From positions 1 to 35,400 of IMG/VR virus record IMGVR_UViG_3300009370_000085: DNA of 35,400 bases; one strand, given 5' to 3'. Within the stretch, counting starts at the first letter, position 1, and the number at the start of each line of letters is the position of its first letter. The position numbers and the translations under genes were made by a program. The notes beneath the pieces were generated by a model. It had not been told where the DNA came from. It was given only the letters and a program-made list of their open reading frames with translations, and ran no database searches. This document shows positions 7,960 to 26,110 of this stretch, in pieces. The stretch comes from a virus.

Positions 7960-7978
7960 GCGGGCGATGGTCGCCCGC
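7960..7978 (+). other. Leader hairpin before cement gene
   Basis: GCGGGCGA (7960-7967) pairs perfectly with TCGCCCGC (7971-7978) around a TGG loop, 35 nt before the next start codon. It has no T-tract. It may protect read-through transcripts or affect translation of the next gene. Confidence 0.5.
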
Positions 7979-8013
7979 GGCGAGTGCGGCCCGAAAGCAA
8001 TCTGAGGTACATC

Positions 8014-8568: not shown

Positions 8569-8574
8569 TCGCAG

Positions 8575-8641
8575 CCCTTCTTCTCCGCTTCCCGGCTAAG
8601 AAGGGTTCGACGGGCCGGGGGGAGGCGAGCGCCCCCCGGCC
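8575..8641 (+). terminator. Two strong hairpins after cement gene
   Basis: CCCTTCTT (8575-8582) pairs with AAGAAGGG (8598-8605). GGCCGGGGGG (8613-8622) pairs perfectly with CCCCCCGGCC (8632-8641). The second is a 10-bp GC stem with a 9-nt loop followed by TAATCC rather than a T-run. Together they probably form a terminator or transcript-stabilising end between head and tail modules. Confidence 0.55.
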
Positions 8642-8659
8642 TAATCCACAGGGAGAGTG

Positions 8660-9271: not shown

Positions 9272-9284
9272 GTGAGGTCACCGC

Positions 9285-9743
9285 ATGGCTCTCGGAGACC
9301 TGACGCTATTCAACGATTTCGCTAGGCAACTAGCGGAAAAAGAGATCGATCTCGCCGACGACGCATACAAGCTGATGCTCGTCAGCAACGCCCTCGTGCC
9401 CGTGGCAACGCAGGCAACCCCGACCCATAGCACCTACAGCGGGACGGAGGTCAGCGGGTCCGGTTACGTCTCGGGCGGCGCCACCGTCAGTTCCACGATG
9501 GGGGTCTCGCTGGCGGCAGCGGTCGCGAGCTGGACGGTGGGCGCGGGCCCGCACGCCACATGGACGGCAACCGCGGGCGGCCCGAGCAATATCCGCTGGG
9601 CCATCCTGTACAACGACACGGCAGCCGCAAAGCCTGCCGCCGCGTTCGTCGATATCGGCGCGGGCTCGGACGTGAACCTCGCGACGACCAGCGTCTATGT
9701 GACGTTCAATACCACCGCGATTGCCCAGATCGAGGTGAGCTGA
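9285..9743 (+). CDS. Conserved phage virion-type protein
   Basis: 152 residues. The N-terminus LTLFNDFARQLAEKEIDLADDAYKLMLV and the later EVSGSGYVSGG, RWAILYND and VTFNTTAIAQIEV fit a widespread family of small beta-rich phage proteins found in structural operons. Their exact role is not known to me; a tail or head decoration role is likely. Its stop overlaps the next start (TGATG). Confidence 0.6.
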   Translation: MALGDLTLFNDFARQLAEKEIDLADDAYKLMLVSNALVPVATQATPTHSTYSGTEVSGSGYVSGGATVSSTMGVSLAAAVASWTVGAGPHATWTATAGGPSNIRWAILYNDTAAAKPAAAFVDIGAGSDVNLATTSVYVTFNTTAIAQIEVS

Positions 9744-10009
9744 TGGGCGCCACCTATCGGTGTCAACGCAGCGCCTATGCGAAACGACGATTTGGTCATG
9801 CGGTCAACCGACTTGACCGCTGCGCCGCTTGCCGGCGGGATGAGTGTCTGCATGATGCCGTGGTCAAACGGGGAGCTGTCCGTCCCGTCTACCCGCGCCC
9901 GCGTCTTTGGCAGCTTTTAGATTCCATGCCGACAGTTCGCGACTTTGCTCCGGCGCCACCAGAATGGCGGCGTGCGTTTGTTCTTGATTCGTTGCCGGGG
10001 TCGCGATGA
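9743..10009 (+). CDS. Hypothetical Cys-containing protein
   Basis: 88 residues, basic, with cysteines CQRS, CAAC and C (residues 7, 28-31, 36) that could bind a metal, and a Pro/Arg-rich C-terminal half. The start overlaps the previous stop and the stop overlaps the next start (ATGA), so it is translationally coupled in a structural operon. Base composition is lower in GC than the head genes. Family not recognised. Confidence 0.55.
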   Translation: MGATYRCQRSAYAKRRFGHAVNRLDRCAACRRDECLHDAVVKRGAVRPVYPRPRLWQLLDSMPTVRDFAPAPPEWRRAFVLDSLPGSR

Positions 10010-10680
10010 GTCACGTCCTGCCGTTCACGATTGACGGGTACACGTTCACGCACACCGACGGCAACGCCGAGCTCGATTCGTTCACTCGGGCAGAAATGTC
10101 AAAGGAGCGGGACAAGGCAACCGGTGTCTGGCGCCCCAACGGGTGGGGCCGGTGCCTTGAGAATCAGACGCACCTTACATTCGCCGTAACCGATTCCGAT
10201 GGGGACTATTTCGGTTCCTGGATGATGTACCGGGTGCAGTCGGTTGATGGAGACCCAAACGTCATCAGCGCCTTGCTGGCCCCGATGTTCCCCGACATCG
10301 AGGCCGTCGCGGTCGTCGGAGAAGCCCGCGCACCGAGCGGAGAGATCCTGAACGCGGACGAGGTCGCAGAGTCGCAGGCGCGGTGGGCGCAGTTCTGGCG
10401 TCGGAACTTTGCCTGGATGGAGTGGCAAGTCATGAACCCGATGCCGCTCGAGGGGGGCGGGAACCTCGTCGTCGACCATTGGCGCTTCCCCCAGACGGAT
10501 GACGGTGACCCGGCGGGACAGTGTTGGCAGAAACTCGAGCCAGCATTCGAGCAGTTCTCGAAACTCGAAGTCGATTGGAACAATCACATGCCGGGGATGG
10601 GGCCGTGCCCCGCGAGAACGACTGGCTGGAAGGCAATCGACCCCGATCCAGGTCGCGCACGCGGATCAATCCATGCCTGA
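10006..10680 (+). CDS. Hypothetical phage protein
   Basis: 224 residues. The start is an ATGA overlap, and the last codons overlap the start of the adaptor fusion gene by 8 nt. It begins with a small beta-like domain (LPFTIDGYTFTHTDGNAELD), has an acidic centre and an Ala/Trp-rich helix (QARWAQFWRRNFAWMEWQVM). It belongs to the low-GC segment inserted between the two adaptor copies. I do not recognise the family; a structural accessory role is inferred from neighbours only. Confidence 0.6.
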   Translation: MSHVLPFTIDGYTFTHTDGNAELDSFTRAEMSKERDKATGVWRPNGWGRCLENQTHLTFAVTDSDGDYFGSWMMYRVQSVDGDPNVISALLAPMFPDIEAVAVVGEARAPSGEILNADEVAESQARWAQFWRRNFAWMEWQVMNPMPLEGGGNLVVDHWRFPQTDDGDPAGQCWQKLEPAFEQFSKLEVDWNNHMPGMGPCPARTTGWKAIDPDPGRARGSIHA

Positions 10681-12568
10681 GACGACGATCGCCCCAGCGA
10701 CTTCCGCAAACGCCGACACGACTGTCGGTGATGCCGCGTACACGAGCGTCACGATTGCTGGTATCGAGTGGGACGACGCATGGCACCAGTTCGGTCGTGA
10801 TGACGAGAAGACGGCCGCAAACCACGGCGCGATCCAACACTATGATACGAGCGGCATCCCGCTGGGCGCGCACGTATCCGGTGCCAAGATCGAAGTGAAG
10901 GCGTCGGACGCAGATTCGGGTGCATTTACCGCAAGCCTCGACGTTCTCGCGCGCACCACCCGCGTGGATCAGGTGACCGAGCAGGTTCACGATGCCCAGG
11001 TAATCTACTACCCAGACTCGGGGATCTTCCCGGTTCACGCGCTATGGGATGATGCCCGGACCTCTGGAAGTGACAAGAGCATCGTCATGCCGCTCACCAC
11101 AGATCACGGCACTGGCGGCGTCGCGCAAGCGTGGAGGTGCGACACGGCTCCGGCGGCGGGGACGACTTTCGCGTACCACTATTTCTTTTTGATTCGCAGT
11201 GGTTCGATGTCTTCGACAACTCTCCGAGTGAAGATATACGAAGCAAGCGGAAGCGCGGGGAATTGGGTTAAGGGTGATCTGATCGATTCTGGGTACCCAC
11301 GTGATGCCGACGACGTTTCCACTTCTGCTCTGGCACCCGTCTCTTTTGGTACGGAAGCCGGGGTCGACCCGGCGACTGGTCTTCACGTACACGCTAACGG
11401 TTGGTCTCCAATTGTGGGCAACACGTATATCAGCGAATTGACCTTCGATGGTGGGACCGGATCTTCAAGCATCTCCGCGGGGATATTGACCACCGCGGAT
11501 GGTAGTGAAGACAACGCACTTATCGTCGCTCGTTACAACGTCACGCCAGCACGAGTCCTGCAGGGCTTCGGTGGGTATACCCAGTACCTCGCTGGTGCCC
11601 GGGTCAAAGATGCGACCAAGCAGGGCTCGGGGAGCACGTTTACCCCGCCGACGTTTGCGTCGGGCACGGTGTATTCGTTCGGGTCCGTGGAGTACAACGG
11701 AGACGCGAACTTTACGGAGGCGTCGAACTTCAAGTCAGATCTACAGGCGGCGCTTTCGGCGAGGACATCGACCGCCGACTGGACCGGCGTGCGGATCCAA
11801 GACTTTGCCGGGACGACGGACGACAGGAGGCGGCGGTTCCACTCGTCTAAGGCCGGCACGGCGACCAGCGGAAGCCTGAAGGGGATGCTGCTCACGCTGA
11901 CGTGGTCGCTTCCGGCCACCGTCACGGTGACCCCACGTCCGAGCTCAGTCTTCAACGAGACGATCATCGAGGAGCCGGGGCCGAGCCTGCGGGCGCCCTC
12001 GGAAACCTCGATTGCAAACGCCGCCCTGGTGATCCTGGGCGAGCGGCGCATCAACGACCTCGACGAAAACGCAAAGTCGGCAAACGTCATCCAGACCCGT
12101 TTTGACGACGTGCGCGATGCGCTCCTGCGCGCCATGACTTGGCGGTTTGCCACTCGCCGGGCGCAGATCGCGGCGTCGGGGACTTCGCCCGCCTGGGGCT
12201 ACACGTACACGTACCCGCTTCCGTTCGATTGCCTGCGGGTGCTCGAGGTCGACGACCGCTGGGGCTTTGGCTGGCGGGTCGAGTCGAACGCGATCGTCAC
12301 GAACGTCGAGTCGCCGCTGGCGATTACTTACGTGGCGCGCGTCGAGGATCCGATCGAGATGGACTCCGAGTTCCGGCAGTTGTTCGCGGCGGCGCTGGCC
12401 GTCGAGCTCGCGGAGACGATTACCGGGGACTCGCGAAAGCTCGAGACGGCGGCGCGGCGCTTTGGTGCCTTGCTCGAGTCGGCTCGCGCCACGAACGGCC
12501 AGGAGGAGTCGCCGCGAGATCCTGCGCTGACGGCGTGGCAACTCTGGCGCGGGGAAAAGGAGCGATAA
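10673..12568 (+). CDS. Large virion domain fused to a second tail tubular protein A
   Basis: 631 residues in two parts. Residues 1 to about 440 are Ser/Thr/Gly-rich and beta-type (for example AYTSVTIAGIEWDDAWHQFG and PGSGST-like turns), encoded by low-GC DNA; no family recognised. Residues about 442-631 are a complete adaptor domain: ETSIANAALVILGERRI, RFDDVRDALLRAM, WGYTYTYPLPFDCLRVLEV. It is clearly homologous to 8660-9271. The adaptor part would sit in the tail ring, placing the N-terminal domain on the tail exterior, possibly as decoration or a receptor-binding element (inference). ATG 10673 is chosen because it gives the usual short overlap. Confidence 0.8.
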   Translation: MPETTIAPATSANADTTVGDAAYTSVTIAGIEWDDAWHQFGRDDEKTAANHGAIQHYDTSGIPLGAHVSGAKIEVKASDADSGAFTASLDVLARTTRVDQVTEQVHDAQVIYYPDSGIFPVHALWDDARTSGSDKSIVMPLTTDHGTGGVAQAWRCDTAPAAGTTFAYHYFFLIRSGSMSSTTLRVKIYEASGSAGNWVKGDLIDSGYPRDADDVSTSALAPVSFGTEAGVDPATGLHVHANGWSPIVGNTYISELTFDGGTGSSSISAGILTTADGSEDNALIVARYNVTPARVLQGFGGYTQYLAGARVKDATKQGSGSTFTPPTFASGTVYSFGSVEYNGDANFTEASNFKSDLQAALSARTSTADWTGVRIQDFAGTTDDRRRRFHSSKAGTATSGSLKGMLLTLTWSLPATVTVTPRPSSVFNETIIEEPGPSLRAPSETSIANAALVILGERRINDLDENAKSANVIQTRFDDVRDALLRAMTWRFATRRAQIAASGTSPAWGYTYTYPLPFDCLRVLEVDDRWGFGWRVESNAIVTNVESPLAITYVARVEDPIEMDSEFRQLFAAALAVELAETITGDSRKLETAARRFGALLESARATNGQEESPRDPALTAWQLWRGEKER

Positions 12569-15500
12569 ATGGCGCGCGCAAAACCGATTCAGAACAGCTT
12601 CAACGGGGGAGAGTTCTCGCCCCGCATGTATGGTCGCACCGACATCCAGAAATACGGTGCCGGAGCACAGGCAATCGAGAACTGGCACATTATGCCAGAG
12701 GGTGGCCTCGAGCGTCGCTCTGGTTTTCGGTACGCCTCCGACGCGGCGTCGGGTTCGACTCGGCTCAAGGAGTTCATCTTCTCAGACGGTCAGGCGTATG
12801 TAATGGAGTTCTCGAACCAGAGCATCCGCTTCTTTCGCAACGAGGGACTGCTCGTCCACCAGACGCTGTCTGGGATCCAGGCGTCGACCGAGGTCAGCTC
12901 CAACACATCCGAGTTCACGGTCGTCGGCCACGGCTACAACGACGAAGACGGCCCGCTCCACATCACGACGGACACGACACTCCCGCCGCCGCTCGCGGTC
13001 TCGACCGACTACTACGTGCGCCTTCCCGAGTCGCACAGCCTTCCTTCTGCGTCGGCAGTAACGCCCGGGTCCGAGTTGTTCACGGTAGGGGCGGGGCACG
13101 GGTACTTCGATCAGATGGGTCCGTTTCGGCTGACCACGACGGGGTCGCTGCCGAATGGTCTGGACTTCGAGCAGGACTACTACATCGTCTTCCAGTCGGC
13201 GACGACGTTCAAGCTCTCGACGATGCCCGGCGGGTCGGTCGCCGCGTTCAGCAACAACGGAACCGGGACGCACACGATCGAGCCGACGGGCGCCTACAAG
13301 CGGGACAAATTTCGCGTCGCTGCCACCCCGACGGGTGCCGCGGTCGATATCACGGCGCCGGGCTCTGGCCTTCACACGCTGACGCCGACGACGAGCCCGC
13401 GGCCGGCGGTTACGCTCTCGACGCCGTACCAGACGGCCGATATTCCTGACCTTCAGTTCGCCCAGTCCGCGGACGTGCTCTACATCGCGCACCCGAGTCA
13501 CGCGCCACGCAAGTTGTCGCGCGTGTCGGCGCAGGGGTTTTTCCTCGAGGAGATCGATTTCCGCGACGGGCCGTATCTGACCGAAAACACAACCGCAGAC
13601 ACCATTGAGCCAAGCGCGACAACCGGCAACGGAATCACGCTGACCTGCACGAAGGCGATCTTCAAGGGTTCGGACGTGGGGCGTCTGGTCAGGATCTACG
13701 ACTCGGCAAGCGGGCCGCACTGGGGCTACGCAAAGATCGTCGGCGTCAACCCGCTCGAATTTCAGGACGCGGACATCGAGGCGCACGATTTTGCCCCGTT
13801 GGACGTGACCGTTGGCAACGACCAGATCGCGATCACAAGTCACGGGATCGACACGGGCGAGGCGGTTCGGGTGAAGGAGGTCGGCACAATCCCAGGCGGG
13901 ATCGTCGCCGCGACGCTGTACTACGCGCGTGCGGTAACCGTAAACATAATCACTCTGCACCCGACGCGATCCGATGCCATTGCCAACACCAACCGTCTCG
14001 ACATCTTGACCCAGGGGTCAGGCGCAGTGTGCGCGCGATTGGTCTCGTCCGTGATCGACGTAGCGGCTCACGGCTACTCTGGCGGTGAGGGTCCGGTGCA
14101 GCTCTCGAACTCGGGCGGGGCCTTGCCGGAGGGGCTCGCGGCGGGGACTGACTACTACGTCGTTGCGGTTGATTCCAACTCGTTTGCACTCTCGCTGACG
14201 CGCGGCGGGGAGACTGTTGGAATCACCGACAACCAGGGAGGGGGCACACACTCCGTGCAGGGCGCGTCCGCGCCGTCCCCGACCTGTACGGCTAACGTGA
14301 AGTCTGATTTTCGTGCGGCGACCGCCAGCGCCGCGTGGAGGCTCGGTGCGTGGAGCAGCGATGCCGATATCGGGTATCCCCGCTCGGTCTCCTTCCACGA
14401 GCAGCGGCTCTGGTTTGCGGGGAATGCCGGAGCTCCGCAGACGATCTACGCCTCGCGGACTGCCGACTTCGAGACCCATAGCCCGACCGGGACGCTCACG
14501 ACGGACGAGACCGACCTCGACTCGACGGTGAGCGACAGCAACGGCATCGTCGCCACCATCGGCTCGAACGAGATCAACGTGCTGCGCTGGCTGTCCCCTT
14601 CGCGGACTCTTCTCGCGGGGACGAGTAAACGGATATGGAACCTTCAGCCCGCCTCGGACGCGAGCGGGTTCTCACCGACGAACACCGAGGCGCAACCCGG
14701 CGGGACGCGGGGTGCCAGTTCGGTGCAGCCCGTGGTGGTCGACAACCGCCCGGTCTTCTGCTCGAACACAGGGCTCAAGATCGGGACCGCGGGGTACTCG
14801 ATCGACTCGGACTCCTACGTCGGGCAAGACCTGACGCTGGTCGCCGAGCACGTCCTTCGGCCCGGCGCCGTGCAGTTGGCCTACGCCGCGGACCCGTGGA
14901 GCACGGTCTTTGCCGTGCGGACAGACGGAGAGCTCGCCGCGCTCACGCTGATCGTCGATCAGGAGATTGCCGGGTGGGGGCGCTTTGTCCTGGGTGGCGC
15001 CTACGTGGCCTCGTACTCGCGATCCTTCACGACGACGGACGTGAGCACGGTCGCCGATACGATCACCGACACGGCTCACGGCATCGCCACGGGCTCCCAG
15101 GGCCGGTTCAAGACGACCGGGTCGATGCCGGCGCCGCTTGAGGAGCACAAGGACTACTGGGTCCGGGCAGTGGACGCGGACACTCTGGCGGTCTTCGAGA
15201 ACGCCAAGGACGCCAACGACGACCGTTCGAGGATCGACCTTACAACGGTCGGGGCGGGGACCATCGAGTTCGGGATCGCGACGAACGCGAAGGTGCTCTC
15301 GGCGGCAGTGATCCCGGCGCCCACGGGCGACCCCAACGCGGTGGGGCGAAACAACATCGACCACGACCAGTTGTGGGTGATCGCCCAGCGCACGATCAAC
15401 GGCGCGACCAAGACGACCGTGGAGTACCTCGAGGACGTATTCGAGCCGACGGATGCCCCCGAGAACGGGTTCTTCGTCGATTCGGGGGCGACCTACAACG

Positions 15501-16006
15501 GGGTCGCAGCCACCAGCATCACCGGGCTCACCCACCTTGCGGGAGAGCTCGTAGACGCTTTGGCCGACGGCAAGGTCATCCAGGCGGCTCGCGTCTCAGA
15601 CGCTGGCGTGCTGACGCTGGACGACGCTGCCTCCAAGGTTCATGTGGGGCTTCGCTACCCCAGTGCTTTCGTGAGCCTTCGACAAGCGTTACCTTCCCAG
15701 GAAGGTAGTTCGGAGATGACCCTGGGGCGGATCGAGCACCTCGTGCTCCGGCTCGACTCGTCGCTGGGGGGGGAGTTTGGGCACTCGCTGGATCACATGA
15801 CGGATTTGTCAGATCTGCTGCTGCCGCACGACCACCTGTTCGACACGGTGCCGCCGCTCTACAGCGACGACATCGAGGTGGCCCTGGACGCCCCCTGGGA
15901 GACGAGCAACCGATTCGCGGTGCGCCAGACGCAGCCGCTGCCCTTCACGCTGCTGGCGGTGAGCACGCCGATGCAGAAGGGCCGCAGGGGGAACCGGAGC
16001 CGATGA
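12569..16006 (+). CDS. Tail tubular protein B (tail nozzle), enlarged
   Basis: 1145 residues against about 790 for T7 gp12. The N-terminus (FNGGEFSPRMYGRTDIQKYG then NWHIMPEGGLERRSGFRY) is diagnostic of nozzle proteins. Extra length comes from about five copies of a small repeat near residues 113-157, 167-236, 418-485, 494-563 and 825-902. The pattern is HGY-GP-L-LP-GL-DYYV-F-LS-GTHT. The C-terminal part has the conserved PVGPLRY-like region and ends basic. The start follows the adaptor stop directly, with AAGGAG upstream. The third dyad repeat lies inside its 3' part. Confidence 0.85.
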   Translation: MARAKPIQNSFNGGEFSPRMYGRTDIQKYGAGAQAIENWHIMPEGGLERRSGFRYASDAASGSTRLKEFIFSDGQAYVMEFSNQSIRFFRNEGLLVHQTLSGIQASTEVSSNTSEFTVVGHGYNDEDGPLHITTDTTLPPPLAVSTDYYVRLPESHSLPSASAVTPGSELFTVGAGHGYFDQMGPFRLTTTGSLPNGLDFEQDYYIVFQSATTFKLSTMPGGSVAAFSNNGTGTHTIEPTGAYKRDKFRVAATPTGAAVDITAPGSGLHTLTPTTSPRPAVTLSTPYQTADIPDLQFAQSADVLYIAHPSHAPRKLSRVSAQGFFLEEIDFRDGPYLTENTTADTIEPSATTGNGITLTCTKAIFKGSDVGRLVRIYDSASGPHWGYAKIVGVNPLEFQDADIEAHDFAPLDVTVGNDQIAITSHGIDTGEAVRVKEVGTIPGGIVAATLYYARAVTVNIITLHPTRSDAIANTNRLDILTQGSGAVCARLVSSVIDVAAHGYSGGEGPVQLSNSGGALPEGLAAGTDYYVVAVDSNSFALSLTRGGETVGITDNQGGGTHSVQGASAPSPTCTANVKSDFRAATASAAWRLGAWSSDADIGYPRSVSFHEQRLWFAGNAGAPQTIYASRTADFETHSPTGTLTTDETDLDSTVSDSNGIVATIGSNEINVLRWLSPSRTLLAGTSKRIWNLQPASDASGFSPTNTEAQPGGTRGASSVQPVVVDNRPVFCSNTGLKIGTAGYSIDSDSYVGQDLTLVAEHVLRPGAVQLAYAADPWSTVFAVRTDGELAALTLIVDQEIAGWGRFVLGGAYVASYSRSFTTTDVSTVADTITDTAHGIATGSQGRFKTTGSMPAPLEEHKDYWVRAVDADTLAVFENAKDANDDRSRIDLTTVGAGTIEFGIATNAKVLSAAVIPAPTGDPNAVGRNNIDHDQLWVIAQRTINGATKTTVEYLEDVFEPTDAPENGFFVDSGATYNGVAATSITGLTHLAGELVDALADGKVIQAARVSDAGVLTLDDAASKVHVGLRYPSAFVSLRQALPSQEGSSEMTLGRIEHLVLRLDSSLGGEFGHSLDHMTDLSDLLLPHDHLFDTVPPLYSDDIEVALDAPWETSNRFAVRQTQPLPFTLLAVSTPMQKGRRGNRSR
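15690..15707. promoter_or_regulatory. 12-bp dyad CTTCCCAGGAAG, copy 3, extended palindrome
   Basis: Here the arms extend to 8 bp (TACCTTCC / GGAAGGTA around CA), the best palindrome of the three copies. It lies within the nozzle gene, about 300 bp upstream of the ejection-protein genes, so it might control an internal promoter. Confidence 0.55.
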
Positions 16007-16452
16007 CGCACGTCGTGCCGTGTACGCCGGATCACTTGCGCTCGATCGAGTCCTTGTCGCCGCCCGAGAGCCGCCGGGTGACGCTGCAGAACCTCGAGGA
16101 GTCCAACGCGGTCGCGCTGGTGCTCGAGGAGTACGCGCGGACGCTGCTGATCGACGAGGTCGTGGCGGCGTGTTTCGGCGTCTGGCCGATGTGGCCCGGC
16201 GTTGCTCGCGCCTGGAGCGACCTCTCGGAGTTGGCCCTGCGTCACCCGAAGGCGCTCCACGGCGCGGTGCGCTCGCAACTGTCTGGGGTGCAGGAATCGC
16301 TGGGTCTGGCCCGCGTGGAAGCGGTGGTCCGACACGATTTCGAGGAAGGGGCTCGCTGGGTCAAGCACCTCGGTTTCGAGCTCGAGGGCACGATGGCGAA
16401 CTACGGGATCGACGGAATCGGCGATTACGATCTCTACGCGAGGGCGTACTGA
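16003..16452 (+). CDS. gp13-like / GNAT-like virion assembly protein
   Basis: 149 residues. The C-terminal half (RVEAVVRHDFEEGARWVKHL, GFELEGTMANYG, DYDLYARAY) has the shape of an acetyltransferase-like (GNAT) fold, as in T7 gp13 and its many podovirus relatives. These are thought to help in assembly of the internal core rather than acetylate. The ATGA overlap with the nozzle gene and position before the gp14-like gene support this. Catalytic activity cannot be judged. Confidence 0.72.
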   Translation: MTHVVPCTPDHLRSIESLSPPESRRVTLQNLEESNAVALVLEEYARTLLIDEVVAACFGVWPMWPGVARAWSDLSELALRHPKALHGAVRSQLSGVQESLGLARVEAVVRHDFEEGARWVKHLGFELEGTMANYGIDGIGDYDLYARAY

Positions 16453-16961
16453 TGGCTGGTGCCGGGCTAACCGGGCTGGGCTCGCTTGGCGGCGTCGGCC
16501 TCGCCGACGTGAGCGGCGGCTTGAGCGCCTTCTCGCAGATCGGCGGCGGCATTGCGAGTTTCGTGCAGGGCAAAAAGAACGCCAAGATGCTCAAGGAGCT
16601 GGGGATCATTGCCGCCCGCGAGGAGCGGGTGAGGACGGCGCGACTGCTCGGAGCGCAGCAGACCGCCGCGGCGGCGAGCGGTATCGACCCGACCAGCGGA
16701 TCCGCCCTGGACGTACAAGCCGAGACGGCGCTCGAGGGCGAGATCGCCGCGCTGATGGCGCAGTTCGACTACGACTCGCAGGCCGAGGTCGCGCGCAACG
16801 AAGGCACCCAGGCGCTGATCGGCGGCCTCCAGAACGCTGCCGGAACAATCCTGGGCGGGCAGCTCGCAAAGCTCGGGCAAAACCCGAGGACGCGGACGCC
16901 CACGTCTTACAAAGCGCCTGCCCGGAACTTCAACGCCGCTGACTACTCGGGGTACGCCTGA
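16452..16961 (+). CDS. Internal virion protein, gp14-like
   Basis: 169 residues. The Gly-rich hydrophobic N-terminus (LTGLGSLGGVGLADVSGG) is followed by a long charged helix with EERVRTARLLGAQQTAAAAS, GIDPTSGSALDVQ and DYDSQAEVARNEG. This is the recurrent signature of the smallest ejection protein (T7 gp14 analogue), which forms an outer-membrane pore at infection. Start and stop both overlap neighbours. Confidence 0.8.
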   Translation: MAGAGLTGLGSLGGVGLADVSGGLSAFSQIGGGIASFVQGKKNAKMLKELGIIAAREERVRTARLLGAQQTAAAASGIDPTSGSALDVQAETALEGEIAALMAQFDYDSQAEVARNEGTQALIGGLQNAAGTILGGQLAKLGQNPRTRTPTSYKAPARNFNAADYSGYA

Positions 16962-18484
16962 TGCCCAGGATCCCCACCGTCGAGCGTGACCTCGCCCCGC
17001 GCGTGCCGGCGCTTCCCCGCGTCCGCGCCCCGCAACTCGCAGCAAACCAACTCTCTGCGACGATGAATCAGGTCACCGACTTCGCGCTCGAGCAGCGGGG
17101 TCGAGAGATCAAGCGGCAGCAGCGCCAGAGCATCTACGAGGCGGAAAGCAAAGTCAGCGCAGTCTTGGCAGAGGCTCTCGCCGAGTTCGGCAATCGAAAC
17201 GACTACAAGGTGTTCCCCGGCGAGCACGACGCCTTCGTCAACCAGCGGATCGAGGAGATCACCAACGGGATCGAAGACCTCGATGTGGCGGATGTCGTTC
17301 GGGCTGCTTCGAGCAGGCAAGCGCAACGGCAGTCGATGGCGATGCAAACCCGAGCCGCGCAACTCTCGCAGGCCGCGACGGTCGCCCATCTGGACGAGGG
17401 CATCAAGCAAGACGCCGCGCGCTACGGGCTTGCCTCAGACGATGCGGGCCGTGCCGCGGTTACCCGCGACGTAAAGAAGCGCCTCGAGGTCGCGCGCCGC
17501 TCGGGGGACATCAGCGAGGCCGATTACGTCAAGCAGTGGAGCACCTTCAACCAACACGGTGCTGTCGCTCTGGCGAAACGCCTCATCAACGAAGACCCAG
17601 AAGAGGCGCTGCGAAAGCTCGAAGACCCAAGCGACTCGGTGCTGAAGGTGCTGGACGGTGAGAAGCGCGAGGCGCTCATCGCGACCGCGCAGAACAAGAT
17701 TGCGAGCACGCAGGGTGGCCGAGCCGCGGCGCTGCGAGAGGCGCGCAACCAGCAGGAGAAAGACTTCCTCGAGCGCATCTACGCTGGAGACTTGCCAGGG
17801 ATCGACGAGTTACTCGAGAGCGACCTGACACCCGAGCGCGTGCAATCCCTGGTCAAACTCACGACCGATGCTGCCGCTGGGCAGTTGTCGATTCAGCAAG
17901 ACCCTGGTGTGTCTTCGTCGTTGTGGGAGCGCATTTACAACTCGGAGCACCCCAGCCCCATCTACAACGAGGCACAAATCTGGCACTACGTCGGCAAGGG
18001 GATCACGGTCGACGACGCAAGGCTAATGACCGAGCAGTTCCAACAGAAGGAAGCGCAAGCCAACCAGGGTGCGTCGTCCTTTTGGAGCGGGCAGAAGTCG
18101 AGCCTTCGCCGTCAGATCACGGGAGTCACCGCGTTTTCTGCCTTCTCGGGGCCAAAGATCGCGCAGGAGCGGTGGCGGGCCTATGAGGCCACGATTGAGC
18201 GGAGGCGACTGGAAAAGCAGCGCGAAGGCGTTGAAGTCTGGGAGATGCTCAACCCAGACTCCGAGCACTACATCTTGCACGACGTGCCGCCGGCACCGAC
18301 ACCGCAGGAAATGGCGGCAAGCGTTCTCCAGTCGAGAGCTGTTGGGAGAAGCGCTGCTGGCGAAACGACCGACATCACGGGCGCCGTAGTTCCGGCACCA
18401 CCCCCCGCACCGCCGGGTAGACCGCCTCGACGCGACGGCGAGACGCCCGATGAATACATGCGGCGCATCGAGTCGGGGCGCTAA
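16961..18484 (+). CDS. Internal virion protein, gp15-like
   Basis: 507 residues, almost entirely charged helices rich in Glu, Arg, Gln and Ala. It has a Pro-rich tail (VVPAPPPAPPGRPPRRDG) and a final DEYMRRIESGR. Size, order and composition fit the second ejection protein of T7-like phages (T7 gp15, 747 residues), which forms part of the periplasmic ejection channel. I see no enzymatic motif. It is coupled to gp14-like by a TGATG overlap and to the giant protein by direct adjacency. Confidence 0.72.
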   Translation: MPRIPTVERDLAPRVPALPRVRAPQLAANQLSATMNQVTDFALEQRGREIKRQQRQSIYEAESKVSAVLAEALAEFGNRNDYKVFPGEHDAFVNQRIEEITNGIEDLDVADVVRAASSRQAQRQSMAMQTRAAQLSQAATVAHLDEGIKQDAARYGLASDDAGRAAVTRDVKKRLEVARRSGDISEADYVKQWSTFNQHGAVALAKRLINEDPEEALRKLEDPSDSVLKVLDGEKREALIATAQNKIASTQGGRAAALREARNQQEKDFLERIYAGDLPGIDELLESDLTPERVQSLVKLTTDAAAGQLSIQQDPGVSSSLWERIYNSEHPSPIYNEAQIWHYVGKGITVDDARLMTEQFQQKEAQANQGASSFWSGQKSSLRRQITGVTAFSAFSGPKIAQERWRAYEATIERRRLEKQREGVEVWEMLNPDSEHYILHDVPPAPTPQEMAASVLQSRAVGRSAAGETTDITGAVVPAPPPAPPGRPPRRDGETPDEYMRRIESGR

Positions 18485-21400
18485 GTGGCGAGCGGACTCG
18501 AAAGACTCGACGAACTCGCCGAGGCCGGTTTCGACCGTGATGAGATCTTGTCCTACAAGGAACGAGAGAAGGACAAACTCATCGCGGCGGGGTTCAGCAA
18601 CGCCGAGGCCAGCGAATACTGGGGCGATCCGGTCATCGGCCCAATGTCCAACGACGAGTACCGCCGCGCCGCCGCCGAGTTCACGCAGACGTGGCTCCCG
18701 CATCATGGCGCAAAGGAAGCCACGAACATCGGAGAGGTGTGGCGCGCTGGGTTTCAGGCGTCGGCGACCGGGCTCGCGATCAACGAGAAGCTGCCAGACC
18801 TTGCTGTACCCGAGAACGCCTCGACGTTTGACAAGGTCGTTTCGGGCGCAGCCACCCTCGCTGGAGATTTTCCCTGGATGGTCGCTGGAGGCATGGTCGG
18901 CGGTGTTAGCGGTGCGCCTACGGGTCCAGGGGCCGCGCTAACCGGGGCGGGAGCCGCGTTCGCCCTGCCGGCGGCCGTGCGGGAGCTCCTCGTCCAAAAG
19001 TACGAGAAGGGCGAGGTCGAGACCTTCGGCCAGTTCTGGGAGCGATTCAGCGGTGCTCTGATCGAGGCCGGCAAAGGCTACCTGACCGGGGTGGCGACGG
19101 TAGGCGCAGGTCAAGCCGTCAAGGGTGCCCAGTTCGTCAAGGGTCTGCCGAAACCGTTGCCCACGGCGGCTCCGCTCGCAGCAGAGATCACGACGCTGAC
19201 GGCGGTCGGTTCGGCGCTCGAAGGCGAGGTGCCCACCGCCGAGGACTTCGTCGTCAACAGCGTGTTGCTCGGGGGCCTGAAAGCCGTCAAGCCGACCGTT
19301 CGTGGCGTGTACCGCGCGAAGGAATCGCTGGCGCCTACCGGGCAGCACATCCTGCGAAACCTCGAGCGCGTCTACGCGCGGACGGGTCGTCGCCCGGCCG
19401 AGGTCGTCGAGGACGCGAAGTCGGACCCGTCAATCCTCGAGGACATCGCGTCGACCAACCGCCAGATCCCGCGCGCCTACGAGGAACTCGCGAAGGCAGA
19501 AGAGGCACGCTCGAAGCCGAAGGACACCGAGGGCGAAGGAGCGGCAGGGGCTGAGCCCACACCCCGTGCTGCCGAGGCCGGGGGTGCGACCGAGATAGGT
19601 CCGAGGGTAGCCGTTGATTTTGCGGGTGGCGGAACAATGGAGGCGGCGATGGGAAAGCACGCCACCATACACGCCGCAGAAATAGATCCAAAGGTTTCCG
19701 CCGAGTACAACCGGGCACACGGCACTAATTTCAAACCCCAGAATGTTCACGACGTTGCCCCGGCACAGATCGCCAACGCGGATCTGTACCACGCGAGCCC
19801 TGTCTGCAAATCATTGAGCCCCGCAAACATTGGCCGGAAGGTCATGCAGCGTGACATTGATTCGGCAGAGAAAATTGCGTCAAACATCCTCGTGGGCCGT
19901 CCGAGAACCGTTTCGATTGAAAACGTCCCCGAGTTCGCGACGAAGCCGGAACTGATGGACCCGATCACTAGGGCGCTGGATGAGGCCGGCTATACCTGGG
20001 ACGTTTTGATCCATGACGCTGCCGACTATGGTGGTGCGATGACGCGCAAGCGGATGGTCATCCGGGCAGTGCGGGATGGCGATCTCCCTCCCGTCCCTGC
20101 GAAGAGAGAGCCTGGCGACTGGTACAAGGTAATCGAGGATCTGATTGATGACGCACCAGACGCCCCATTTGGGAAACCACGCGGAAAAAGAGCAGCAGCC
20201 GGAAAGGGGAATTGGGAACAGGCGCGGATCACCGAGATGGCAGAAAAAGGTGAACTGGATCTGTCGGAACCGATCATCACGATGGGCGGCTCTGCGGGTT
20301 CCGCGGTTGCCTACGCCAGAAACGCGGGCGTCCCTGCCCCAACGCTGAAGGCAACATCGAAGGAGAAAGCCAGGATCATCCTACCTGACGGGCGGGTGAA
20401 GGAACTGACGACTCGAATGATGGCTAGGCTGATGGGGTTGCCCGATTCGTTTCGCATCCCCGAAGATAAGGGTTTAGCGAAGACAATCCTCGGAAACGGA
20501 ATCCACGCCGAGACGACGAGGAACTTCATCGAGCCGCTTGCTCAGGTCGGCGCACGTTCCGAAGCCCCCACCCCCCGCGCCGGCGAGCCGCAGGTTCCAC
20601 CGCAGGCGGAACAGCGCATGTCAATCGAGTCGGAATTGACCTCCGCGCGGGAGGAAGCCGCACGCATCGCGAAGACCTCTGCAAAGGAGCTGCGAGAGCA
20701 GGGCGTGATCGGCAAGGACGGCGAGTTCACGACAAAGAAGGCGGCGGTCGAGGCGGCAAAAGAAAAAGTCAGTGGGCTGCAAGAGAGATTGCTCGACCTC
20801 GCGCGGGAACCCGAAGGCGAGCCCGCCGACCCCGCCGGCCTAGCCCTCGAGCGCGACGCCGCAGTAGACCACATCCTGGGCAAAGTCGTCCGTGGTGCGC
20901 GAGACAAGCCAGAGCGCCCGGACTTCAACACGTTCTACCGACTGTTCGTGGACCGACTCGACCCGATTCGCCGTGCCGTCGAGAGCATGGAGCCCGAGGC
21001 TGCAACCGAGGCCAACGCATACCGTCTCATGCGGATGCTCTCTTCTGCCAGCGCGAAGGCAGAGCACTTCATCACGCGCGGCACGTTTGACTTCAAGACG
21101 CTGGCGGAAACCGGGCCGTCCATGCGGTCGATCTTCGACCGGCACCCTGGCGAGCTCGATGGACTTCGGAGTTATCTGGTAAGCGCGCGCGTCCTCGAGC
21201 TCTCGGAGCGCGGCGTCGAAACCGGGATCGACGTCGGGAAGGCTCGTCAGGTCGTCGACAAGTATGCCAGCCGCTACGAGCAAAGCCGGGCTGACCTGTT
21301 TGAGTTCCAGGGTGCCGTCCTCAAATACGCAAAAGACGCAGGCGTCATCTCGCAGAAGACTTTCGAGTTGATGCTCGAAGCCAACAAGAACTACGTCCCG

Positions 21401-24079
21401 TTCCATCGACTCATGGATCCCCGCCCCGGAAAAGCGGGGGCCACGATCGGTGCGACCACGCCGCTCTATCGCATCAAAGGCTCGGAGAGGGAAATCCTTG
21501 ACCCGCTCGAGTCAATCATCTTGAACACGCACATGCTGATACGCGCCGCTGATCGCGCACACGCACTGGATCAGTTCTTCAGCATGGTCGAGCGTACCGG
21601 GCGAGACGATCTGGCGAGGAAGAAGAAGCGCAAGGTGCGCCCGATTACGCTCGACGAAGGCGAGGCCAAGAAGTTCGCGAGACTGTTCAGCGAGCAGATG
21701 GAGCTCACGGAAGAGCAGGCTCGCCAACTAGAAATCGGGTTCACCGAGGAACTCGCCATTTTCCGCCCGGCGGCGTCCCAGGTTCGCGAGACCGGGGAAG
21801 TGGTGCGGATGAACAAGGGGAAGAAAGAGGTCTGGCAACTCGACCCAGAAATCGCCGAGGCGATTGCCACTCTTGATCAGGTCGAGACGAACGCCTTCAT
21901 CAAGTTCCTCGAGGGGCCGGCCAAGTTGCTCCGCGCGGGCGCGGTCCTCTCGCCCGAGTTCATGGCGCGCAATCCGATTCGCGACACGTTCGTTGCGTAC
22001 CTCCAGAGCGACAGCGGGTTCCGGCTTTTCGCCGATTCAGTCTGGGGCGCGTTCTCCGTCGCGAGCACCTACAAGCCGACGCGAGGAGCTGTCAAGGCTG
22101 TTGCCGGGAAGGCCCGCGCGAAGCGGCTGGAAAACCTCTACTACGAGTGGATGCGAAGCGGCGGGCCGATGGCCGAGTTGGTGGCCCTCGACCGTCGCTA
22201 TCTGGCGACCGACATCCGCAAACTCGACGGCCAGCTCAAGATGACCGAGCGCGTCCGCAACTACGTCGACCCGCGAAACATCGTCGAGGTGTTGCGCTTG
22301 ACCTCGCAGATGATGGAGCAGGCGACGCGGGTCGGCGAGTACGGCAGGGCGCGCAAGCAGGGGGCAAGCATCCGCGAGGCGGGGTTCCGTAGCCGGGACG
22401 TGTCGCTCGACTTTGCGCGTGCGGGCTCGGTTGCCAAGGAGATCAACAAGGCGGCGGCGTTCTTCAACGCGCAAATCCAAGGGCACGATCTGCTGCTGAA
22501 GAACGCGAAGGAAAATCCGCAGCGGTTTCTGGCAAAGGGGTTCGCCTCGATCACGCTTCCCTCGATCGCGATCTACGCATACGCCAACAGCACCGAGCAG
22601 AGGCGGCGCACGTATGCCGAGATCCCCGACTGGCAGCGGGACTGGTTCTGGGTGTTTCCCGTTCCGAGCGCCGAGGCAACGGGGGTGGACAGGGATTTCG
22701 GGCTCGGTGTGACCGCAGAGTACGGAGGCGAGGTCTGGGCGCGGATGCCGAAGCCGTTCGTCTACGGTTACCTCTTCGGCACGATTCCCGAGAAGTCGAT
22801 GGCGCACATCCTCGAGCACGACCCGGATGCGCTCGACGGCGTCCTCGACACGTTGCTCCAGCAGGGGATGGTGAGCCCGATGCCGAGCGGGCCGCTTGTC
22901 GCCGTCGAGCTCTACGCGAACAGATCGATGTGGACGAATCGGCCGATCATCCCGACTGACCGCGAGCGCCTGCTGCCGGAGTTCCAATACTCGCCGTACA
23001 CGACGGCGCTCTCGAAGCAGATCGGGCGCGTCCTCTCTGACTTGCCGTTTGGCATGTCGGAGGTCGACCTTCCCCTGGTCGGCCCGCTTCGCTTCAGCCA
23101 GATGTCGTCCCCTGCGGCAATCGATTACACCGTGCGCGGGCTGACCGCGGGGCTGGGCTCGACGGTGTGGAAACTCGTGAGTGATGGACTCGAGGCGTCT
23201 GGCCTCGTGCCGGAGACAGTGGACCCTGCGAAGACATGGTCCGACATCCCTGTAGTGAAGGGGTTCATGGTGCGCCATCCGACGATGGCGGCGCAATCGA
23301 TCGCCGACTTCTACGACCGGAGCCAGCCATACATCCAGAAGGCAGAGACCTACACCACCCTGGTGCGCGCTGGTGAGGTCGACCAAGCGATGCGGCTGCT
23401 GGACCGTGATGGGTACGAGATTGAGAGCCTTGGCGGGCTCTCGGGCATCCGCTCCGAGATCGGAGCCGCGGCAAACGCGGCAAACGGCATCTGGATCATG
23501 CCGGGCTGGACTCCAGAAGAAAAGCGGCATCTGATCGACCAACTCTACATCCAGGCGATCGGGACAGCGCGCCTCGGGCTCGAGATCATCGACGACTTTG
23601 AACAGTCTCCGAACCAAGTTGTGCCGCAGGAACAACAACGTAGTCCCGAGCCGGAGCTTCCGCCGGTCTCGTTGGTGCCGCCCGAGCCTGTCCGCACGCC
23701 ACGCTTTGAGATTCAGGACATGGGCTGGTCTCTCTTGGAGGGTGTTAGCGGGGAAACTCTTGACCCTGGCGCCGTCGAAGTGTTGCGACTGGCAAAGGAG
23801 CGGATCCGGTACCACTCCAAAGACGCGGATCTCGTGGTCACCGATGCCGAGCGAACGCGCGACCAGCAGCGCAAGTTAAACCAGCGCGATGGGAAAGCCG
23901 AGGGCTGGGTCAGCGGTCATGAGAGCGACGTGGCAATCGACATTCGAGGACACGACTTCACTCAAAAGCAACGGGAAGACATTGCGTATTTCGTGAAGAC
24001 TCGAGCGACGACTCCTGGGATCCAGTACGAAATCGCGTACAAGGACAAGCACATCCACTTTGAGTGGGATTCACTGTGA
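18485..24079 (+). CDS. Giant ejection protein (gp16-like) with internal C5 DNA methyltransferase and C-terminal M15 peptidase
   Basis: 1864 residues from a GTG directly after the preceding stop. Residues 1-330 contain charged helices and Gly/Ala-rich hydrophobic stretches. About 370-685 is a C5-cytosine methyltransferase: motif I DFAGGG (about 376-381), motif IV SPVCKSLSPAN with the candidate nucleophile Cys, motif VI ENV (about 479-481), motif VIII TRKRMVIR (about 520), LTTRMMARLMGLPDSF (about 640) and motif X GNG (about 671). Residues about 780-1400 are helical, with NPIRDTF near 1163, resembling large polyvalent-protein associated domains. The C-terminus has SGHESDVAID (1810-1819) and HIHFEW (1856-1861), the zinc-site pattern of M15 peptidases. 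By position it is the T7 gp16 analogue, expected to be ejected into the cell and to locally open peptidoglycan. Confidence 0.88.
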   Translation: MASGLERLDELAEAGFDRDEILSYKEREKDKLIAAGFSNAEASEYWGDPVIGPMSNDEYRRAAAEFTQTWLPHHGAKEATNIGEVWRAGFQASATGLAINEKLPDLAVPENASTFDKVVSGAATLAGDFPWMVAGGMVGGVSGAPTGPGAALTGAGAAFALPAAVRELLVQKYEKGEVETFGQFWERFSGALIEAGKGYLTGVATVGAGQAVKGAQFVKGLPKPLPTAAPLAAEITTLTAVGSALEGEVPTAEDFVVNSVLLGGLKAVKPTVRGVYRAKESLAPTGQHILRNLERVYARTGRRPAEVVEDAKSDPSILEDIASTNRQIPRAYEELAKAEEARSKPKDTEGEGAAGAEPTPRAAEAGGATEIGPRVAVDFAGGGTMEAAMGKHATIHAAEIDPKVSAEYNRAHGTNFKPQNVHDVAPAQIANADLYHASPVCKSLSPANIGRKVMQRDIDSAEKIASNILVGRPRTVSIENVPEFATKPELMDPITRALDEAGYTWDVLIHDAADYGGAMTRKRMVIRAVRDGDLPPVPAKREPGDWYKVIEDLIDDAPDAPFGKPRGKRAAAGKGNWEQARITEMAEKGELDLSEPIITMGGSAGSAVAYARNAGVPAPTLKATSKEKARIILPDGRVKELTTRMMARLMGLPDSFRIPEDKGLAKTILGNGIHAETTRNFIEPLAQVGARSEAPTPRAGEPQVPPQAEQRMSIESELTSAREEAARIAKTSAKELREQGVIGKDGEFTTKKAAVEAAKEKVSGLQERLLDLAREPEGEPADPAGLALERDAAVDHILGKVVRGARDKPERPDFNTFYRLFVDRLDPIRRAVESMEPEAATEANAYRLMRMLSSASAKAEHFITRGTFDFKTLAETGPSMRSIFDRHPGELDGLRSYLVSARVLELSERGVETGIDVGKARQVVDKYASRYEQSRADLFEFQGAVLKYAKDAGVISQKTFELMLEANKNYVPFHRLMDPRPGKAGATIGATTPLYRIKGSEREILDPLESIILNTHMLIRAADRAHALDQFFSMVERTGRDDLARKKKRKVRPITLDEGEAKKFARLFSEQMELTEEQARQLEIGFTEELAIFRPAASQVRETGEVVRMNKGKKEVWQLDPEIAEAIATLDQVETNAFIKFLEGPAKLLRAGAVLSPEFMARNPIRDTFVAYLQSDSGFRLFADSVWGAFSVASTYKPTRGAVKAVAGKARAKRLENLYYEWMRSGGPMAELVALDRRYLATDIRKLDGQLKMTERVRNYVDPRNIVEVLRLTSQMMEQATRVGEYGRARKQGASIREAGFRSRDVSLDFARAGSVAKEINKAAAFFNAQIQGHDLLLKNAKENPQRFLAKGFASITLPSIAIYAYANSTEQRRRTYAEIPDWQRDWFWVFPVPSAEATGVDRDFGLGVTAEYGGEVWARMPKPFVYGYLFGTIPEKSMAHILEHDPDALDGVLDTLLQQGMVSPMPSGPLVAVELYANRSMWTNRPIIPTDRERLLPEFQYSPYTTALSKQIGRVLSDLPFGMSEVDLPLVGPLRFSQMSSPAAIDYTVRGLTAGLGSTVWKLVSDGLEASGLVPETVDPAKTWSDIPVVKGFMVRHPTMAAQSIADFYDRSQPYIQKAETYTTLVRAGEVDQAMRLLDRDGYEIESLGGLSGIRSEIGAAANAANGIWIMPGWTPEEKRHLIDQLYIQAIGTARLGLEIIDDFEQSPNQVVPQEQQRSPEPELPPVSLVPPEPVRTPRFEIQDMGWSLLEGVSGETLDPGAVEVLRLAKERIRYHSKDADLVVTDAERTRDQQRKLNQRDGKAEGWVSGHESDVAIDIRGHDFTQKQREDIAYFVKTRATTPGIQYEIAYKDKHIHFEWDSL
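19592..20540 (+). other. Embedded C5 methyltransferase module
   Basis: In-frame segment of the giant ejection gene that encodes the full methyltransferase, including the DWYKVIEDLIDDAPDAPF segment typical of free-standing phage and bacterial enzymes. Rows counted by hand are about 50-58 % GC (one row 65 %) against about 68 % upstream. It is bordered by similar linkers, EPTPRAAEAGG and EAPTPRAGEPQ, consistent with insertion of a cassette. Confidence 0.8.
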
Positions 24080-24112: not shown

Positions 24113-26110
24113 ATGACCGTATCGACGACGAATAGTGCCGTCTCGTACACGGGCGACGGATCGACCACGGCGTTTGCCGTGACGTTCGAGTTCATCGACT
24201 CGTCCGAGGTCAAGGTCTATACGCGGGTCATCGCGAGCGGGATCGAGACGCTCAAGTCGCTCACCACCCACTACACGCTGGCCGGCGGGAGCGGGTTGAC
24301 GGGGACGGTCACGTTCCTGACCCCGCCTCCCTCGACCGAGCAAGTACACATCATCCGCGACACGACGCGGACGCAGCCAAACGACTTCACGCCTTCGCAG
24401 CGGTTCCCGAGCGCCAGTGTCGAGCGGGCGCTGGACCGAGCAGTGATGAGCGGGCAGGACATTCTCGGGACGGTATCTGACCGGGCAATAACGATTCCGG
24501 TCACGGACCCCGCGGCGGGCTCCGACCTGCCGAACGCAGTCGACCGCGCGAGCAAAGTCCTGGGTTTTGATTCTGCTGGCGTTCCGACAATGATCGAGAA
24601 CCTCGTAAGTGGAGAAAGCGTTACATCCACAGGTTCAACCACCGCGAGGACACTTGCTGAGCGTTTTTCCGAGATAAAAAACGTCAAAGACTTTGGCGCA
24701 AAGGGCGACGGCGTGACGAACGACACGGCGGCCGTCGAGGCGGCGATGGCTGCCGTGCCCTCGACGGGTGGACGGGTGTTCTTCCCAAACGGGACATATC
24801 TCGTGAAGGATGTCGAGATCCCGGCTGTCAGCGAAATCGAACTGTACGGCGATTCGGGGCGGTCGTGGACGGAGACGGGCGGCGCTCAGCTCAAGGCGCT
24901 CGACGGAACAGTGTCCTTCCTGCTCGCGAATACCAACTACGCTCAGAGCAGCGGAACAGCTGGGCCTCCCCTCGTGATTCGTAACCTTCGCTTCAACGGA
25001 GACGACCTCGCGACGGATTGCTTGATCCTGACGAATTTCCAATCCGAGGTGTCGGACTGCCACATCTTCGGCGCGACACGGGACGGTTTGCAACTGAGTT
25101 GCTCGATGGCGAACGGGGCGACGATTTCCAACAACAACGTGAACAGCCGCGTGCTCGGTTGCAAGATTCAGGACAACGGAAGGTACGGAATGAATCTTCG
25201 TTCGGACCTGTTTCAAGACAAGGTCACAGACGTGAACGCCGAGAACAATATCATTCACAACAACGGAGACGACGGCGTTAACTGTGATTCTTCGGGTGGC
25301 CTCACGTTCTTCGGAAACCGAGTGTTCAGTAACGACGGCTGGGACATGGACATCCTAAAGGCGGGTCCGGGAGTCATTATCCTATCGAACCATTTCGGCG
25401 CGCAGAATACCGAGACGATCGTCGAGTGGGGGGTGTCGGTAAGTCGTCAGGCGGCGGTGGCGATAAGGTCAATCGGAACGACAAGAACGGCGCTCCTAGC
25501 AAACAACCGTATCGCCGGAGTCGTGTACGTTCTCGAGGGTAGCTCGGCGACAGACGCAAGGCTGATGTCCGCCGGCAACGTCTATCAGAACACGGAGCCG
25601 GGTGACGCATACCTGTATCTCCAGTCTACGACAAAGATCGTTGTCTACTCTACCGGCGACTCGTTTGAGACGGCAGAGCCGTTCAGGTCGAACCTGACCA
25701 GCGGCAACAACGCGCAGTTCTTCGTCTCGAATTCGACATCTCGCTCAAAGGGGAAGACGTTGCCGCTGGACGGAGAGCATAACCCCGTGGGCAGTTCTGT
25801 TCCGGTGAAGTCGAGATCGGAAGTGGTTGCGTTCGCAGACGCAGACGCCACCCCATCGGTTGCCGGTGGGTATTTGTTCAAGACGGCAAATACGGGAGCT
25901 ACCACAATCACTGCACTCGATGACGGGCACGAGGGTCAGGTCATTCGTGTGATCTTCAATGACGCCAACACTACCGTCGATTTCACCGGAACAAACCTGA
26001 AGGGAAACGTCGGAGTGGATTGGTCTCCAGCGACAAACGATCACATGACGTGCGTGCATAACGCGGCGACCGGGCTGTGGCACTGCGACATCTCGGACAA
26101 CACAGCATGA
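24113..26110 (+). CDS. Tailspike 1 (beta-helix)
   Basis: 665 residues. Residues 1-150 are a T7 gp17-type N-terminal anchor (SYTGDGSTTAFAVTFEFID, then PSASVERALDRAVM). KNVKDFGAKGDGVTNDTAAV (about 190) starts a pectate-lyase-type beta-helix, which in podoviruses binds and often cleaves surface polysaccharide. The C-terminal 80 residues (GYLFKTANTGATTITALDDG and on) form a separate small beta domain. The anchor is GC-rich and the helix clearly AT-richer. Its stop overlaps tailspike 2 (ATGA). Catalytic residues cannot be named from sequence alone. Confidence 0.85.
   Translation: MTVSTTNSAVSYTGDGSTTAFAVTFEFIDSSEVKVYTRVIASGIETLKSLTTHYTLAGGSGLTGTVTFLTPPPSTEQVHIIRDTTRTQPNDFTPSQRFPSASVERALDRAVMSGQDILGTVSDRAITIPVTDPAAGSDLPNAVDRASKVLGFDSAGVPTMIENLVSGESVTSTGSTTARTLAERFSEIKNVKDFGAKGDGVTNDTAAVEAAMAAVPSTGGRVFFPNGTYLVKDVEIPAVSEIELYGDSGRSWTETGGAQLKALDGTVSFLLANTNYAQSSGTAGPPLVIRNLRFNGDDLATDCLILTNFQSEVSDCHIFGATRDGLQLSCSMANGATISNNNVNSRVLGCKIQDNGRYGMNLRSDLFQDKVTDVNAENNIIHNNGDDGVNCDSSGGLTFFGNRVFSNDGWDMDILKAGPGVIILSNHFGAQNTETIVEWGVSVSRQAAVAIRSIGTTRTALLANNRIAGVVYVLEGSSATDARLMSAGNVYQNTEPGDAYLYLQSTTKIVVYSTGDSFETAEPFRSNLTSGNNAQFFVSNSTSRSKGKTLPLDGEHNPVGSSVPVKSRSEVVAFADADATPSVAGGYLFKTANTGATTITALDDGHEGQVIRVIFNDANTTVDFTGTNLKGNVGVDWSPATNDHMTCVHNAATGLWHCDISDNTA

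Follow-up and report, generated by a model that had tools for sequence, protein, structure and literature searches.

Why should a phage embed a DNA-modifying enzyme within a giant virion-type protein, and could such an enzyme act on the phage's own DNA as that DNA enters the cell? These questions are raised by a viral stretch of 35,400 nucleotides (IMG/VR record IMGVR_UViG_3300009370_000085, positions 1 to 35,400; hereafter the window), in which the gene at the position of T7 gene 16 encodes a protein with an internal C5-cytosine DNA methyltransferase domain. We examined the domain itself, the backbone that carries it, its cysteine content and its nearest relatives, and weighed on that basis what the enzyme may be doing.

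A C5 methyltransferase domain within a giant protein

The open reading frame (18485-24079, plus strand) begins with a GTG right behind the preceding stop codon, and the first residue of its product lines up with the first residues of related proteins. It contains zero internal stops over 1864 codons, bearing out the proposal of the first-pass annotation that the methyltransferase is embedded without stop or frameshift. Only two domains of the product reach the Pfam threshold, PF00145 and LPD38 (Table 1). The PF00145 match covers aa 379-681 (E = 1.4e-22; 81 bits against a cut-off of 22), and a search of the whole 35,400-base record returned it as the one match to this family (19619-20527), with no second C5 enzyme found elsewhere in the record.

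Table 1. Features of the window from the tail genes to the tail fibre, including the parts and motifs of the giant protein
Feature	Coordinates	Strand	Basis or remark
Tail protein phrog_394	10499-12568		profile
Tail protein phrog_376, gp12 position	12569..16006	+	profile
gp13-like internal virion protein (phrog_308 / phrog_4177), 149 aa	16003..16452	+	profile
gp14-like internal virion protein phrog_418, 169 aa, 0 Cys	16452..16961	+	profile
gp15-position protein, 507 aa, 0 Cys	16961..18484	+	gp15 by position only
Giant gp16-position protein	18485..24079	+	1864 aa: N-terminal domain, C5 methyltransferase, LPD38 core, C-terminal domain
Conserved N-terminal part, aa 1-335	18485..19489	+	common to relatives without the enzyme
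C5-cytosine methyltransferase domain, aa 370-692	19592..20560	+	PF00145, PDB match, AlphaFold model
Motif I VDFAGGG, cofactor loop	19613-19633	+	
Motif II AAEIDP	19673-19690	+	
Motif III NVHDV	19742-19756	+	
Motif IV SPVCKSLS with catalytic Cys441 (codon 19805-19807)	19796-19819	+	
Motif VI IENVPEF, catalytic Glu479	19916-19936	+	
Motif VIII YGGAMTRKR	20027-20053	+	R521 and R523 clade-invariant
Target-recognition region, approximate, aa 583-638	20231..20398	+	boundary by inference
Motif IX LTTRMMARLMGLPDSF	20405-20452	+	
Motif X ILGNGI	20486-20503	+	
Backbone core, aa 815-1704	20927..23596	+	homologous to relatives without the enzyme
LPD38 domain PF18857, aa 1376-1591	22610..23257	+	Pfam, E 6e-28
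C-terminal extension, aa 1736-1864	23690..24076	+	tentative M15/VanY-type peptidase, by motif
Tail fibre/spike, T7 gp17-type N-terminus, gp17 position	24113..26110	+	sub-threshold PF03906, phrog tail-fibre matches

The principal C5-methyltransferase motifs (I-IV, VI and VIII-X) are all present and in order. The textbook form of motif IV in these enzymes is PPC. Here it reads SPVC instead, a form that is invariant in 12 of 12 aligned rows of the embedded clade described below, with SLS in the window enzyme where the clade has NFS or QFS; in a phmmer domain alignment Cys441 stands in register with the PPC motif of M.HaeIII. The catalytic residues C441, E479, R521, R523, G670 and N671 are invariant across the clade.

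A first AlphaFold model, built on a shallow set of 8 sequences, was mediocre (pLDDT 64.6) and still matched M.HhaI with a Z of 18.9. The second, built on 20 sequences (pLDDT 92.6, pTM 0.90), contains a class I methylase fold with a recognition lobe and matches M.HhaI (Z 26.0, rmsd 2.9, 291 residues) and M.HaeIII (Z 26.0, rmsd 3.1, 279 residues); Dnmt2-type enzymes were also among the fold-search matches. These motif and fold matches are not due to chance. It is virtually certain that the domain has a C5 methyltransferase fold, and it is very probably active as an enzyme. The description of a complete C5 enzyme in the first-pass annotation, which had proposed a profile search as a check, is upheld by the PF00145 and M.HhaI matches; the domain lies where it had been placed, and motifs II, III and IX, which had gone unlisted, are present as well. 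The window enzyme shares the complete fold and the motif order with M.HhaI and M.HaeIII. Unlike those free-standing partners of restriction enzymes, it is one domain of a virion-type protein and has a short recognition region.

The backbone and its insertion slot

Profiles back a T7-type gene order as read in the first-pass annotation, running from gp11-, gp12-, gp13- and gp14-like products through the gp15 and gp16 positions to a gp17 N-terminus. The gp13-like gene occupies the position of genes labelled acetyltransferase in relatives. The giant protein had also been called gp16-like, which is true by position only. Comparison of a profile of 18 backbone relatives with the single T7 gp16 sequence (hhalign) gave a probability of 0.9%, a PDB profile search returned no T7 gp16 match for the backbone, and Pfam gave no match to an N-terminal transglycosylase domain, which is not universal in the gp16 family and is absent in P22 (PMC8954989). 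By its domains, the protein is instead of the LPD38 polyvalent type: it combines disparate domains (PF00145 and LPD38, PF18857) with a phage structural-gene context, two of the marks of phage-type polyvalent proteins according to Iyer et al. (2017). It thus resembles gp16 of T7 and P22 in gene position and order, in large size and in carrying an enzymatic domain as a module, and differs from them in its methylase insert, with no sequence homology detected and no transglycosylase match at the N-terminus. Because homology to T7 gp16 is not detectable, a T7-like topology would hold by analogy only. Hydropathy peaks near aa 147-170 and aa 1348-1366 flank the enzyme together with most of the core, an arrangement like that in T7, but both are too weak for a claim of membrane segments.

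The C-terminal extension carries a pattern found by eye, SxHxxxxAxD ... HxH (SGHESDVAID ... HIHFEW), that resembles an M15/VanY-like metal site. Pfam gives a sub-threshold match to DUF5715 (E = 0.0025 when the extension is searched alone), searches against PHROG, PDB and phage relatives gave no match, and the extension is missing in the closest relative. We tentatively regard it as an M15/VanY-type peptidase, which might take the peptidoglycan-cutting role of T7 gp16 by means of another fold.

Viral contigs scanned with the full-length giant protein as sole query gave no matches, and relatives of the backbone came from alignment queries. Among named relatives the nearest is MW202898 (1280 aa), which can be aligned to aa 1-335 (32%) and 814-1704 (30%), has only a short linker where the window protein has its enzyme, and lies in an identical gene order. 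MW202898 (L002:6001-9843) was deposited as a 'type I restriction enzyme methylase'; Pfam finds LPD38 only, and the label looks wrong. Eighty IMG/VR relatives, mostly of 1160-1320 aa, are co-linear in the same way, and among 146 core-bearing open reading frames collected the C5 enzyme occurs in one, that of the window. A comparison of relatives with and without the insert, also proposed in the first-pass annotation, therefore yields co-linear flanks with the enzyme missing in close relatives; in these alignments the enzyme is an insertion relative to homologues that align on both flanks. Third-position GC is 65% in the enzyme domain versus 79% in the N-terminal part and 82% in the core, in keeping with later acquisition of the domain, although a tail-fibre region of the same phage is equally low. 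Flanking direct repeats, sought as a trace of insertion, came to one imperfect 17-nt pair (82%), which is unconvincing.

In other phages the place in front of the core is taken by different cargo, namely a Zeta-toxin-type kinase, an adenine methylase or an ART domain. One relative (L134) combines an N6-methylase with a helicase and ART, and a small methylase domain is the cargo in L139 and in Vibrio phage 41E34.2. The Zeta-toxin-type kinase occurs in the same backbone in L040:6521-11284, L133:5784-10523, L138:5787-10193, L141:5790-10532 and L128:4243-9804, the last with a histidine phosphatase in addition; these five LPD38 proteins are otherwise Cys-free. The slot of L012:6947-11614 appears by eye to hold ART-like and ParB-like modules, which Pfam did not confirm.

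A single cysteine and a clade of embedded enzymes

The giant protein contains exactly one cysteine in 1864 aa, the catalytic nucleophile Cys441. The Cys rate of the remaining genes of this phage predicts 14.8 (P(<=1) ~6e-6), shuffling of codon positions gave a mean of 20.6 and a minimum of 9 in 2000 trials, and TGY triplets in the gene number 1 in frame versus 62 and 49 in the other two frames. The depletion extends to the family: counted from the first methionine, 116 of 118 distinct LPD38-core proteins are Cys-free (151,071 residues, 33 clusters at 50% identity), the exceptions being the window protein and L139. The LPD38 proteins of L139 (139-6600) and L142 have 2-3 internal Cys (aa 973, 1128 and 1297 of the open frame) together with a small methylase-like domain.

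The same scarcity marks known ejected proteins. T7 gp15 and gp16 have zero Cys, a state from which the window protein departs by just its catalytic one. The N4 virion RNA polymerase gp50 (3500 aa) also has none, versus 12 in the N4 DNA polymerase (859 aa), and the absence of Cys in N4-type virion polymerases has been tied to passage through the tail or periplasm (PMC3715699, PMC2784036). These polymerases are giant, ejected, Cys-free polypeptides that deliver enzymatic activity to the host ahead of any gene expression (PMC2784036, PMC3715699), as the window protein may also do; the polymerase works without any Cys, however, whereas the window enzyme keeps one that is indispensable. What is new here is that the chemistry of the enzyme needs a Cys and that precisely this one stays. 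This single-Cys adaptation is the most striking feature of the locus, and suggests an enzyme that reaches the host in a functional state and protects the phage DNA on arrival. Shewanella phage Y11 (L312:3065-13183) encodes a 3372-aa protein labelled 'methyltransferase' and a 481-aa neighbour, both with zero Cys; the larger is a candidate for a further ejected giant.

Closer relatives, with 47-54% identity, came from a query that combined the window enzyme with the embedded enzyme of L182. Of 83 phage C5 enzymes placed in a maximum-likelihood tree, 12 form one clade (100/100) made up of 8 embedded and 4 shorter enzymes, and the 71 free-standing enzymes all fall outside it; the window enzyme sits on a fairly long branch. 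Because sampling was query-driven and several branches are long, a single origin of the clade is suggested, not proven. Free-standing phage enzymes such as ORF010 of Planktothrix phage PaV-LD belong to the same family (about 28-32% identity), but have their own gene, lie in early or replication regions where examined and contain 4-19 Cys. Among the isolated phages in the collection no embedded-clade member was found, the best matches being free-standing enzymes at about 28-31% identity.

Counted from the likely start, the catalytic Cys is the only Cys in 10 of the 12 clade members. It is the sole one in L297 (3483 aa), L298 (1438+ aa, contig end), L299 (3530 aa), L296 (1786 aa, 5' open), the L304/L182 protein (3893 aa, 5' open) and the shorter L301-L303 frames, and in L300 a second Cys occurs only upstream of the likely start. 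Members with 4-6 Cys lie in other backbones, L306 (4907 aa) and L263 (3484 aa). The L306 frame (162-14882) joins the C5 methylase to a GHKL ATPase, ART and YunG and has 5 Cys. The L263 enzyme (3-10454) is embedded in a giant protein in the genome of Prevotellamassilia timonensis (Bacteroidota), at a locus that is probably a mobile element.

Clade enzymes are fused to unrelated backbones, of LPD38, LPD22, LPD1/LPD5 and ART-PolyVal types. Those of L297-L299 contain LPD22 or DUF7178, not LPD38, and their podovirus-type records have a PF12236 portal gene and, a short way upstream, a gp14-like gene of phrog_418, weakly matched in L297 (E 8e-4). A scan of the clade's records for phrog_9854 gave no match, but as it matched nothing anywhere it does not indicate absence. 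Compared with known phages, the part of the L182 protein before the enzyme matches LPD5-type phage proteins and the part after it has no match. In the clade alignment the short recognition region is conserved to the same degree as the catalytic parts (mean pairwise identity 53% versus 42-72%), a hint that the members may share one short target.

Modification of entering DNA and its alternatives

Methylases within giant virion proteins have precedents. P1 DarB is one for protection in cis, and DarB-type proteins couple an EcoKI/TaqI-type adenine N6-methylase to a SWI2/SNF2 helicase and LPD36 (PMC5512222). JC1 gp69, a 4515-aa LPD38 protein with an adenine methylase, was detected in purified virions with 51 unique peptides (PMC9144972). 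Like P1 DarB, the Bcep22-like proteins and JC1 gp69, the window protein is a giant with an internal DNA methylase for which protection of the entering DNA is proposed, and would share their place in the virion; it further resembles JC1 gp69 in having LPD38 near its C-terminus and in the position of the gene, which in JC1 stands behind that of a 510-aa virion protein (PMC9144972). Unlike the DarB type, it has a C5-cytosine enzyme with a catalytic Cys and lacks a helicase; Pfam found no dyad of adenine N6-methylase and SWI2/SNF2 helicase in it. The founding survey of polyvalent proteins describes the methylases in its main text as adenine-type, with 'cytosine' appearing only in a reference title (PMC5512222). 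Because adenine versions (DarB, Bcep22-type) were already known, novelty lies in the cytosine enzyme with its single-Cys form. The first-pass annotation, which cited DarA/DarB of P1 as related logic, needs correction to that extent.

By analogy with these systems, the giant protein is very likely a virion component, and its ejection into the cytoplasm is likely, with indirect backing from a cassette that, like T7 gp15/gp16 and the N4 polymerase, is Cys-free apart from Cys441, and from the JC1 virion data. T7 gp16 lies in the capsid core and is ejected, its C-terminal part coming to lie on the cytoplasmic side where the DNA enters (PMC8954989); were the LPD38 protein to behave in the same way, the enzyme would sit where the DNA emerges, with host S-adenosylmethionine (SAM) at hand. 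The backbone would be kept in the capsid and ejected with or ahead of the DNA, and the methyltransferase domain would refold in the host, use host SAM and methylate a cytosine within a short recognition site of the phage DNA during entry, shielding it from restriction before any phage gene expression. The tail channel and the oxidising periplasm would select against Cys while the chemistry needs one, which would explain the loss of all but Cys441. The activity after ejection, the target, the antirestriction role and the reason for the Cys loss are inferences. On balance we lean towards a virion-packaged, ejected C5 methyltransferase that modifies entering phage DNA and is carried as cargo in the largest ejection protein of a podovirus; that methylation of entering DNA is its main role seems somewhat probable. 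Points that weigh against this reading are the lack of detected homology to T7 gp16, the 2-3 Cys tolerated in the L139/L142 lineage, the 4-6 Cys of some embedded clade members, and SLS in motif IV of the window enzyme.

Across the whole window, many 6-base palindromes are under-represented (GACGTC 1 versus 17 expected, TGCGCA 0 versus 12, ACGCGT 0 versus 12), a shortage that resembles that of phages under type II restriction pressure. As a guide to the target of the enzyme this was rejected: many 6-mers are avoided and none is specific.

Expression of the gene is presumably late, which would allow the enzyme to work on progeny DNA rather than on entering DNA, newly made gp16-position protein methylating replicating phage DNA before packaging and its presence in virions being incidental. 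Synthesis of virion proteins is late and takes place in cytoplasm with SAM available, and the free-standing phage C5 enzymes of early or replication regions work by expression; the Cys loss, too, would fit if the domain need merely pass with its backbone. For such a role, however, a free gene would suffice without fusion, whereas clade members occur as fusions with a number of unrelated backbones, in three cases behind gp14-like genes, and the other cargo of the LPD38 backbone is effector-type. We therefore regard late action as unlikely, while giving it some weight. That same cargo bears on a second alternative, in which the substrate of the ejected enzyme is the DNA or some other nucleic acid of the host, whose methylation alters host expression or defence: the Zeta-type kinase and ART are expected to act on the host, and the Dnmt2-type enzymes among the fold matches act on tRNA. 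The nearest structural matches are nevertheless the restriction-modification enzymes M.HhaI and M.HaeIII, and few ejected copies, if numbers are as for T7 gp16, would suit a local substrate on the entering DNA, which makes a host target improbable.

A catalytically inactive domain, kept as a DNA-binding or spacer module, would accord with the slightly deviant motif IV (PVCKSLS) and the fairly long branch, but not with the retention of every clade-invariant catalytic residue or with Cys441 as the sole Cys left in a backbone otherwise cleared of them, and we give it very little credence. A chimera in which assembly fused the ejection gene with an unrelated methylase gene is scarcely credible: although the evidence comes from a single, unannotated metagenomic contig and the domain differs from its flanks in third-position GC, both junctions are in frame over 1864 codons, the frame as a whole contains one Cys, and independent contigs show the architecture again.

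Extended beyond the window, modification of entering DNA would imply a distinct clade of virion-delivered C5 methyltransferases on unrelated ejection backbones, stripped of Cys save the nucleophile and methylating entering phage DNA, with the delivery route limiting the number of Cys; we put forward this wider reading tentatively, at slightly under an even chance. Whether tail-ejected enzymes act on entering DNA after refolding is a hard question to test. A C5 mark is covalent and can be read by bisulfite or nanopore sequencing minutes after infection, so that here the question becomes directly testable. The single-Cys pattern would also serve as a sequence test for ejected proteins, and the enzyme would be a natural example of adaptation to a delivery route that leads along a narrow channel and across an oxidising compartment.
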